Below are positions 53,123 to 55,018 of a stretch of DNA of 64,000 nucleotides, one piece after another. The stretch is from NCBI RefSeq assembly GCF_937129525.1, contig NZ_CAKZNK010000067.1, positions 62,001-126,000 of the forward strand, written 5' to 3'. Numbering within the stretch: position 1 is the stretch's first letter; each line of letters starts with the position of its first letter. A program made the translations under genes and the position numbers. The notes beneath the pieces were generated by a model that was not told where the DNA came from, ran no database searches, and saw only the letters and a program-made list of their open reading frames with translations. Source of the DNA: an uncultured Chloroflexus sp. GTDB taxonomy: Bacteria; Chloroflexota; Chloroflexia; Chloroflexales; Chloroflexaceae.

Positions 53123-55018
53123 ATGAGCAATCCGCAATCGACCATCAGGGGCGAGCGGCGAGCCGGCGTCGAGTCTAACCTTGAACTGCGCGACTACCGC
53201 CTGCATGAAGTCATCGGGCAAGACGAACTCTCGCTCATCTATCGCGCGACGCATCAGACCCTGAATCGACCGGTCTATGTTGCGATCTTGCGCCGCCACG
53301 ACTGGATCTCAAACAGTCGTTTCCAAATGGCGGCCCAACTGGGGGCAAGTCTTAGCCACCCACACCTCTTGCCGGTGATTGATGCCGGCCACGACGAGCG
53401 CTACGGCAACTATATGGTTACTCCGTATGTCAATGCTCGTCCACTTAGCGCCATCCTGGCCGAAACGAAACCCGATCTGGCGCTATCAGTGCGGATCATC
53501 AGTCAGATTGCTGCGGCGCTCGACTACCTGCACGAGCAGAAAATCGTTCATCGCGATGTGCAACCGGCCAATATTCTGGTCACACCCGAAGGAAATACGT
53601 ATCTCACCAATCTCAGCCTGGCGTCAGCGCCTGATGCACCCGATTTGAGCCGGATTGAGGAAGCCGATTATGTCACGCCCTATTCAGCCCCCGAATTGCG
53701 GCTGGCTCAACATACTGCGCATCCGTCACTCGATATTTACAGCCTGGGCGCGGTTGCATACCACCTGCTCAGCGGCGAGTTGCCACCTGCTGACCTGATT
53801 GTCGAAATCAATGGAGCCAACGCATCACCGGAACTGAAACGCGCCGAAGAGGTGCTGTTACGCATGCTGTCACCGCAACCCAATCTGCGTTATCCGACAG
53901 CGAGTGCCGCAGCCAATGCACTTCGTCTGAAGCTGCGCGAATTGCTCGATCAGGCGACAACCGACATGGAAGAGTCGCGCTGGGAGACATGCGCGGAGTG
54001 GTTTGAAAATCCGCTCGAGCTGGCGCTGAGTTCTGAGCTGTCAGATCTGGCCGGGCAATTTAACGATTTCCTGGCCGAATCGCGCAAACGAGCCGATGAA
54101 TTGCACCGCCGCGGTTATCTGCGCAAATGGTTGAATCGGTGGAGCCGGCAGAAATTTCTACGTCGGCCATCGCTTGGCCAACTGATCGAATTCGAGACTA
54201 TTGCCAGCTACAACATTTACATCTACAAACTAAAAGTTCTCTACGAGCGACGCACCGAACCACGCCTTCGCCAGCGTCCGATGCAACTTGACGAGCGACC
54301 AAGGGCAGAATTGCCGCTTGATGTGTGGAGTGTGCCACTGCCGGAGCCACAAGATTTCAGTTCCGAACAGGGATCGGAAATAGTGTTGCCGGGATCGCGC
54401 CGATTCTTCACCTGCGCCAACTGCCAGGGTTCCGGGCAGGTAGTATGTCCACAGTGTCAGGGCAAAGGCGTGATCAAGCCGCGAGCGCGGCGCAATGATA
54501 CCGATCCGGTTGAGCAGCAGTGCAGTACCTGTAAAGGGTACCAGAAAGTTCGATGCGAGCAGTGCAATGGCAACGGAAATATGGTTGAAGAAAAGGTCTT
54601 CACCTGGTCGCGATGGGGACTCGAACATCAAAATGATGACGACAGCGAAGGATTGCCGGCTCAAGCGCAGAAAGCGATCGAACAGCGCTCGCGCAAGGTG
54701 TATGAAGCTGAAATCGATCCTTATGATAGCCGCTGGCACAGTGTTAGCTCGTTGAGCAAGTTAATTAACGAGTCTATTGACCGGGTCGAAGACGAAAAAA
54801 ATATGAAGTTGATTCGGGCGCATTTGCAGATTACCGGAAGCATGATAACCGAAATCCGTGGTTTGCTTGACGATCAAGAGTGTGAATTGTACCTGATCGG
54901 GCCTGAGCGGATACTGATCAGCACGATACCGCTCGTCAGCTTTGAGCGGATTATGCTGGTGGCGGCATTAACGCTCTTGATTGTGATGGCTGCGGTGATG
55001 GTGATGATGTTGTGGTGA
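53123..55018 (+). CDS. Predicted pseudokinase with DnaJ-type zinc finger and C-terminal membrane anchor
   Basis: Residues 24-275 follow the Ser/Thr kinase fold: HRDVQPAN (143-150), an APE-like YSAPE (to 191) and DIYSLG (204-209). Key catalytic positions have changed. The glycine loop is IGQDELSLIY, the ATP-anchoring Lys of VAIK is Leu (VAIL, 53-56), the catalytic-loop Lys is Gln147, and DFG is replaced by NLS (163-165). Residues 431-481 carry four CxxC pairs (431/434, 442/445, 467/470, 478/481), three followed by GxG as in DnaJ. The C-terminus (606-630) is one hydrophobic helix, suggesting tail anchoring with the rest in the cytoplasm. It is probably a scaffold or chaperone-like regulator. 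Function unknown. Confidence 0.82.
   Translation: MSNPQSTIRGERRAGVESNLELRDYRLHEVIGQDELSLIYRATHQTLNRPVYVAILRRHDWISNSRFQMAAQLGASLSHPHLLPVIDAGHDERYGNYMVTPYVNARPLSAILAETKPDLALSVRIISQIAAALDYLHEQKIVHRDVQPANILVTPEGNTYLTNLSLASAPDAPDLSRIEEADYVTPYSAPELRLAQHTAHPSLDIYSLGAVAYHLLSGELPPADLIVEINGANASPELKRAEEVLLRMLSPQPNLRYPTASAAANALRLKLRELLDQATTDMEESRWETCAEWFENPLELALSSELSDLAGQFNDFLAESRKRADELHRRGYLRKWLNRWSRQKFLRRPSLGQLIEFETIASYNIYIYKLKVLYERRTEPRLRQRPMQLDERPRAELPLDVWSVPLPEPQDFSSEQGSEIVLPGSRRFFTCANCQGSGQVVCPQCQGKGVIKPRARRNDTDPVEQQCSTCKGYQKVRCEQCNGNGNMVEEKVFTWSRWGLEHQNDDDSEGLPAQAQKAIEQRSRKVYEAEIDPYDSRWHSVSSLSKLINESIDRVEDEKNMKLIRAHLQITGSMITEIRGLLDDQECELYLIGPERILISTIPLVSFERIMLVAALTLLIVMAAVMVMMLW

Follow-up and report, generated by a model that had tools for sequence, protein, structure and literature searches.

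A predicted pseudokinase with a zinc-finger domain and a C-terminal membrane anchor, and its intact-looking paralogue, in the order Chloroflexales

The locus and the layout of the protein

The window, i.e., the whole stretch of 64,000 nucleotides analysed here from an uncultured Chloroflexus sp., carries an open reading frame, here named A, whose coordinates, frame and length had been correctly read in an earlier note on this DNA and whose ATG start codon is preceded by a GAGG ribosome-binding motif. The gene ctpA lies upstream with a gap of 446 bases and a UvrD-like helicase gene converges on A, so that A is probably a single-gene unit. A second protein of the same genome with the same layout, here named B, serves as the reference throughout. 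The features of A are the following:

53123..55018, forward strand: whole gene A, 631 aa, with a pseudokinase domain, a zinc-finger domain and a tail anchor; full-length orthologues occur across Chloroflexales
53192..53938, forward strand: pseudokinase domain, residues 24-272, recognised by PF00069, the AlphaFold2 model of the N-lobe and the best Foldseek match, PknA
53192..53437, forward strand: N-lobe, residues 24-105, with Gly34 to Asp, Lys54 to Ala and Glu70 to Ala, defined by identity and residue counts
53549..53572, forward strand: catalytic loop HRDVQPAN, residues 143-150
53609..53617, forward strand: NLS in place of DFG, residues 163-165
53975..54922, forward strand: C-terminal module, residues ~285-600, consisting of a conserved segment, an inserted zinc finger and a further conserved segment, from profile and hhalign comparisons
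54413..54565, forward strand: four CxxC pairs, Cys431-Cys481, forming two predicted zinc sites, from cysteine counts and spacing
54947..55012, forward strand: tail-anchor transmembrane helix, residues ~609-630, from hydropathy across orthologues

The kinase-like nature of the first domain is well supported by Pfam, whose Pkinase model (PF00069, E 6e-25) covers residues 25-252 and, at 88.5 bits, clears its cut-off of 31.7. In the second half of the protein BSD2_CRD matches residues 430-487 above its cut-off (33.2 vs 27) and DnaJ_CXXCXGXG stays below its own (25.2 vs 32.7). The four DnaJ-like CxxC pairs already recognised in the earlier note fall at 431/434, 442/445, 467/470 and 478/481, with a spacing of 7-21-7, and all eight cysteines are kept in 52/52 A and 49-50 of 50 B proteins. 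The Pfam scan found no J-domain in A, which is therefore not a DnaJ (type I Hsp40), a class defined by a J-domain with HPD. The terminal hydrophobic helix is likewise borne out by hydropathy, which places a single terminal transmembrane segment in 50/52 A proteins (at ~609-630), 47/50 B proteins and 5/5 kinase-less or partial forms; 0-6 residues follow the hydropathy window in A, leaving almost no tail. No Pfam or NCBIfam model describes this arrangement, nor is it described among open-access papers; in agreement with the earlier note, the architecture is outside any named family in the libraries searched.

A kinase fold with a degenerate active site

The full-length AlphaFold2 model of A, built on an alignment of three sequences, is poor (pLDDT 40.6), and a kinase-only model, also from three sequences, reaches a pLDDT of ~70-90 in the N-lobe and is unreliable beyond residue 165. 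The modelled N-lobe comprises strands 25-33, 37-44 and 49-56, a helix at 61-76 and strands 87-91 and 95-101, in the order beta1-3, alphaC, beta4-5 found in kinases. Foldseek ranks PknA of Mycobacterium tuberculosis first, with modest TM-scores (~0.5) due to the poor model of the C-lobe, and the same protein is the best PDB match by sequence.

The state of the active site was read from the columns of an alignment of 52 A and 50 B proteins. The lysine of the VAIK motif corresponds to residue 54, which in A is His (33), Ala (9), Ser (6) or another residue and never Lys (0/52), compared with Lys in 50/50 B proteins; the window protein has Ala. The previous placement of this loss at Leu56 is wrong, since alignment with the 50 paralogues with intact VAIK/VALK shows that Leu56 is the L of VAIKVL and that "VAIL" (53-56) had been matched to VAIK. 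The replacement of the DFG Asp163 by Asn had been called correctly and is conserved, with Asn in 45 A proteins, Gly in 5, Ser in 1, Met in 1 and Asp in 0/52, against Asp in 50/50 B. Two further losses had been missed, namely that of the C-helix Glu70 (Ala in 49/52 A, Glu in 50/50 B) and that of the Gly-loop Gly34 (Glu/Asp in 52/52 A, with Asp in the window protein, and Gly in 50/50 B). In the catalytic loop, the HRD Asp145 is invariant in A (52/52) and in B, and Asn150 is kept in 41/52 A proteins. The reported change of Lys147 to Gln is also correct and conserved (48/52); by itself this loss is not diagnostic, because the intact-looking B has mostly Ser/Ala at the same position.

An active Ser/Thr kinase was considered for A and rejected, as Lys54 and the DFG Asp are absent from all the orthologues and only the HRD Asp is kept. 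By the sequence definition A is a pseudokinase, having lost two of the three catalytic motifs in 52/52 proteins in addition to Gly34 and Glu70, and the call made in the earlier note is thus strengthened. In all 52 orthologues both VAIK and DFG are degenerate. A WNK-type displaced lysine, which the earlier note had named as an outcome that would speak against its reading, is not conserved anywhere in residues 24-60 of the 52 A proteins, where scattered Lys occur in six sequences; beta1 and beta2 offer no conserved Lys or Arg stand-in either (R26 and R41 each 39/52). At the sequence level A has lost its nucleotide- and metal-binding residues, and it would be expected to lack phosphotransfer.

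A kinase fold can also serve other chemistry: SelO AMPylates and SidJ glutamylates. It could be asked, then, whether the domain of A performs another nucleotide-dependent reaction or acts as a switch through metal-free ATP binding. The invariant Asp145 and the frequent Asn150 would suit such a role, as would the fact that Gln147 and Asn163 are themselves conserved and not drifting. A also has arginines of its own (Arg57 in 50/52, Arg58 in 52/52, Arg72 in 48/52), and in the DLHK pseudokinases ATP has been modelled as held by arginines (PMC12599244). However, the alignment puts the arginines of A where beta3 ends and in helix C, beta1 and beta2 provide no conserved basic residue, and four nucleotide- or metal-binding positions, the Gly-loop included, were lost together; a non-canonical reaction or switch is therefore considered unlikely.

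The paralogue B and the conservation of the N-lobe

In the genome of the window B is encoded on contig C50 (15353-17371, assembly G000) and, unlinked to A, shares ~27-30% identity with it over the full length. The two proteins have the same order of domains, the eight cysteines and the tail anchor, but B has an intact Gly-loop, Lys, C-helix Glu, HRD and DFG, of which A keeps HRD only. Judged from these residues, B looks catalytically intact. Its catalytic loop reads HRDxSP or HRDxAP, and not HRDxKP, in nearly all 50 sequences.

The kinase-domain tree recovers an A clade (100/100) and a B clade (97/98) and does not resolve them as sisters among the other kinases of the genome. In the tree of the C-terminal module, the A clade (99/98) and the B clade (96/90) stand together apart from kinase-free relatives (100/100). 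This is consistent with the duplication of an ancestral module, giving A and B, that predates the division of the order into families; since sisterhood of the kinase domains is not resolved, kinases may have been fused separately in A and B. The two genes lie apart, and no gene next to either of them is retained from family to family: ctpA is found upstream of A in many Chloroflexaceae, and RecJ/RecG and a NUDIX gene lie near A in part of family f4.

Purifying selection on the pseudokinase of A is strong: in close pairs, dN/dS is 0.03-0.10 for this domain (residues 24-272), 0-0.08 for its N-lobe and 0.07-0.17 for the kinase domain of B. Identity of the window protein to orthologues from other families, with the divergent genus g34 excluded, is 61-69% in the N-lobe, 49-61% in the C-lobe, 39-55% in segment 285-420 and 28-45% in the zinc finger region. 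The N-lobe is thus the best-conserved part of A, across at least four families, and is better kept than that of B (61-69% vs 51%). Residues conserved in A and not in B include Gln33, Glu35, Leu36, Arg57, Arg58, Trp61 and Arg72. That the best-kept part of A surpasses the N-lobe of its live-looking paralogue points to the N-lobe of A as a binding face.

The C-terminal module and its kinase-free relatives

A profile of residues 283-631 of A matches ~500-aa kinase-free proteins in other Chloroflexota (L145-L157, L162-L164). With the CxxC stretches cut out, both the segment before the finger and the segment after it still match these relatives (hhalign 95.5% and 94.0%, respectively), and the crossed controls give 0.4% and 0.1%. 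The zinc finger is therefore inserted in a larger independent domain: the finger, called DnaJ-type in the earlier note and probably of DnaJ/BSD2 type, is a part of a domain of residues ~285-600 and not a stand-alone appendage. The relatives share with A the homologous segments that flank the finger and differ in being soluble, with seven CxxC pairs and neither kinase nor transmembrane helix; a kinase HMM found no kinase adjoining them within a flank of ~2 kb. They are an unnamed domain family, having a marginal zf-AtTam37 match only in Pfam and none in NCBIfam. The layout recalls eukaryotic SSUH2, to which we presume that the kinase-free family may be related. In the PDB, a profile search with the C-terminal module returned only zinc-finger chains (DnaJ 1exk, BSD2 6ekb, EMB2737 8xku).

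A tblastn search of plasmids with one of the relatives (L147) gave one weak haloarchaeal match, a protein annotated as hypothetical on a plasmid of Halobaculum magnesiiphilum (NZ_CP081960.1:98910-99710, E 4e-5, 25% identity), which could be driven by the CxxC repeats.

Distribution across the order and loss of the pseudokinase domain

Nearly every genome of Chloroflexales has a full-length relative of A: the query is matched at least once (E<=1e-30) in 79/82 genomes of the order and in 56/56 of those of good quality; the rest of the class gives kinase-domain matches only. A is inherited vertically across the order and always in single copy. A and B occur together in roughly 64/82 genomes of the order, an approximate count in which most exceptions are fragmentary assemblies. 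In one genome of 75% completeness, the A orthologue (G041:C1:789431-791362) is interrupted by a TAG that separates two matching pieces, due either to a sequencing error or to a pseudogene.

This distribution bears on the idea that A is an anti-phage defence kinase, suggested by PADLOC matches (PD-T4-6, MAD6) down to E 1e-39. These matches span the kinase fold only and arise equally for any Ser/Thr kinase, and the vertical, order-wide, single-copy inheritance without defence neighbours, together with the fact that neither a mobile-element location nor patchy presence was seen for A, makes a defence function most improbable.

In genus g34, with genomes of ~3 Mb, the full-length members L098 and L099 have visibly degraded kinase motifs, and four genomes (G074, G076, G078 and G081) encode kinase-less forms of A (L100-L103) of 353-398 aa, if the longest start is taken, which retain the eight cysteines and the anchor. 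In the tree of the C-terminal module these forms nest inside A beside the full-length members of the genus, showing that the pseudokinase domain was lost. The four kinase-less genomes yielded no B; nor did G057 and G058 (genus g27) and G077, all with full-length A, and A can therefore persist without B. The coupling between loss of the pseudokinase domain and absence of B is suggestive and not strict, and the linked losses in g34 are a single evolutionary event.

The decay of the domain in L098 and L099 and its absence from L100-L103 are what could be expected if the pseudokinase were everywhere a relic without a function of its own. Outside g34, however, the low dN/dS and the conservation of the N-lobe, the best-kept part in at least four families, already disfavour this reading, which is left with very little probability.

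The same genomes could be taken to indicate that the module does the work and the pseudokinase just positions it, so that A would primarily be a BSD2/ZnJ-type chaperone or assembly factor, bound to the membrane and holding clients. Such a role would agree with the retention of module and anchor in g34 after the pseudokinase was dropped, with the module standing alone in other Chloroflexota and with the match to BSD2_CRD above cut-off in a protein devoid of a J-domain, as are BSD2 and ZnJ2. Nevertheless, a chaperone of this kind should have its module better conserved than its pseudokinase, and most of the order shows the reverse; no relative of the module has a demonstrated client; and the BSD2-type functions of chloroplasts relate to RuBisCO, a protein with no link to the A gene. 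A chaperone function is therefore thought improbable, to about the same degree as a non-canonical reaction.

Proposed role

The terminal helix, the kinase and zinc-finger nature of the rest of the protein and the lack of another transmembrane segment in most orthologues suggest that A faces the cytoplasm, and the tail anchor would hold it at the cytoplasmic face of the inner membrane. A would have arisen together with B, of the same layout and with an intact-looking Ser/Thr kinase, and the C-terminal module that they share, predicted to bind zinc, most likely binds protein, for assembly with itself or with a partner or for the binding of clients. The finger itself may bind clients or sense redox state, as the earlier note suggested. 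The N-lobe of A may then be a binding face that docks or allosterically controls a live kinase, most likely B; as B shares the layout and has an intact active site, a partnership with a live kinase is the leading idea. The reading that we prefer, with a probability of about 0.5, is that A is a non-catalytic membrane-tethered scaffold whose N-lobe docks or controls a live kinase, most likely B. A more specific and tentative version, for which the odds are against rather than for, is that in Chloroflexales tail-anchored A and B assemble in a membrane complex via the zinc-finger module and the N-lobe of the pseudokinase gates the kinase.

The system has natural controls, namely an intact paralogue of the same layout in the same cell, a lineage that has lost the pseudokinase domain and kept the rest of the protein, and a kinase-free module elsewhere in the phylum, by which the contribution of the pseudokinase can be directly tested.

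Comparison with known systems

Among bacterial pseudokinases, a function is known for few, and the families described so far come mostly from actinobacteria or proteobacteria (PMC12599244). Newly recognised here are the order-wide A, its intact paralogue B, the N-lobe as the most conserved part, the separate C-terminal domain and the loss of the pseudokinase domain in a sublineage.

A shares the kinase fold with the PknA/PknB-type Ser/Thr kinases (PF00069), PknA of M. tuberculosis being its best PDB match in both sequence and fold. In contrast to them, it is devoid of the catalytic Lys, of the DFG Asp and of PASTA domains, and both of its domains lie on one side of a transmembrane helix placed at the extreme C-terminus.

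Among bacterial pseudokinases, the DLHK family keeps HRD with loss of the ATP- and DFG-motifs, has no transmembrane region and is often fused to a DEAD-like helicase/DNA2, and the DYD family, actinobacterial and firmicute, has Arg for the beta3 Lys and DYD for DFG (PMC12599244). A resembles both in keeping HRD with degraded ATP- and metal-binding motifs. Assignment to DLHK was rejected on the transmembrane helix in 50/52 A proteins and the lack of a helicase domain, and assignment to DYD on position 54, Arg in 1/52, and on NLS at the DFG site. No zinc finger is described for either family, and Chloroflexota are absent from the review (PMC12599244). The MviN pseudokinase of M. tuberculosis is membrane-linked, like A, and has a live kinase, PknB, as its partner, but has all three motifs degraded and a different architecture.

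On the side of the zinc finger, BSD2 and ZnJ2 are J-domain-less proteins that hold unfolded clients (PMC5818400). They have four CxxC pairs as A does, but are small soluble chloroplast proteins, whereas the finger of A is part of a larger domain that follows a pseudokinase in a membrane-anchored protein.

If the proposed partnership of A and B is true, the pair would be an independently evolved bacterial counterpart of the JAK or HER-type combinations, kinase/pseudokinase pairs being known from animal cells.
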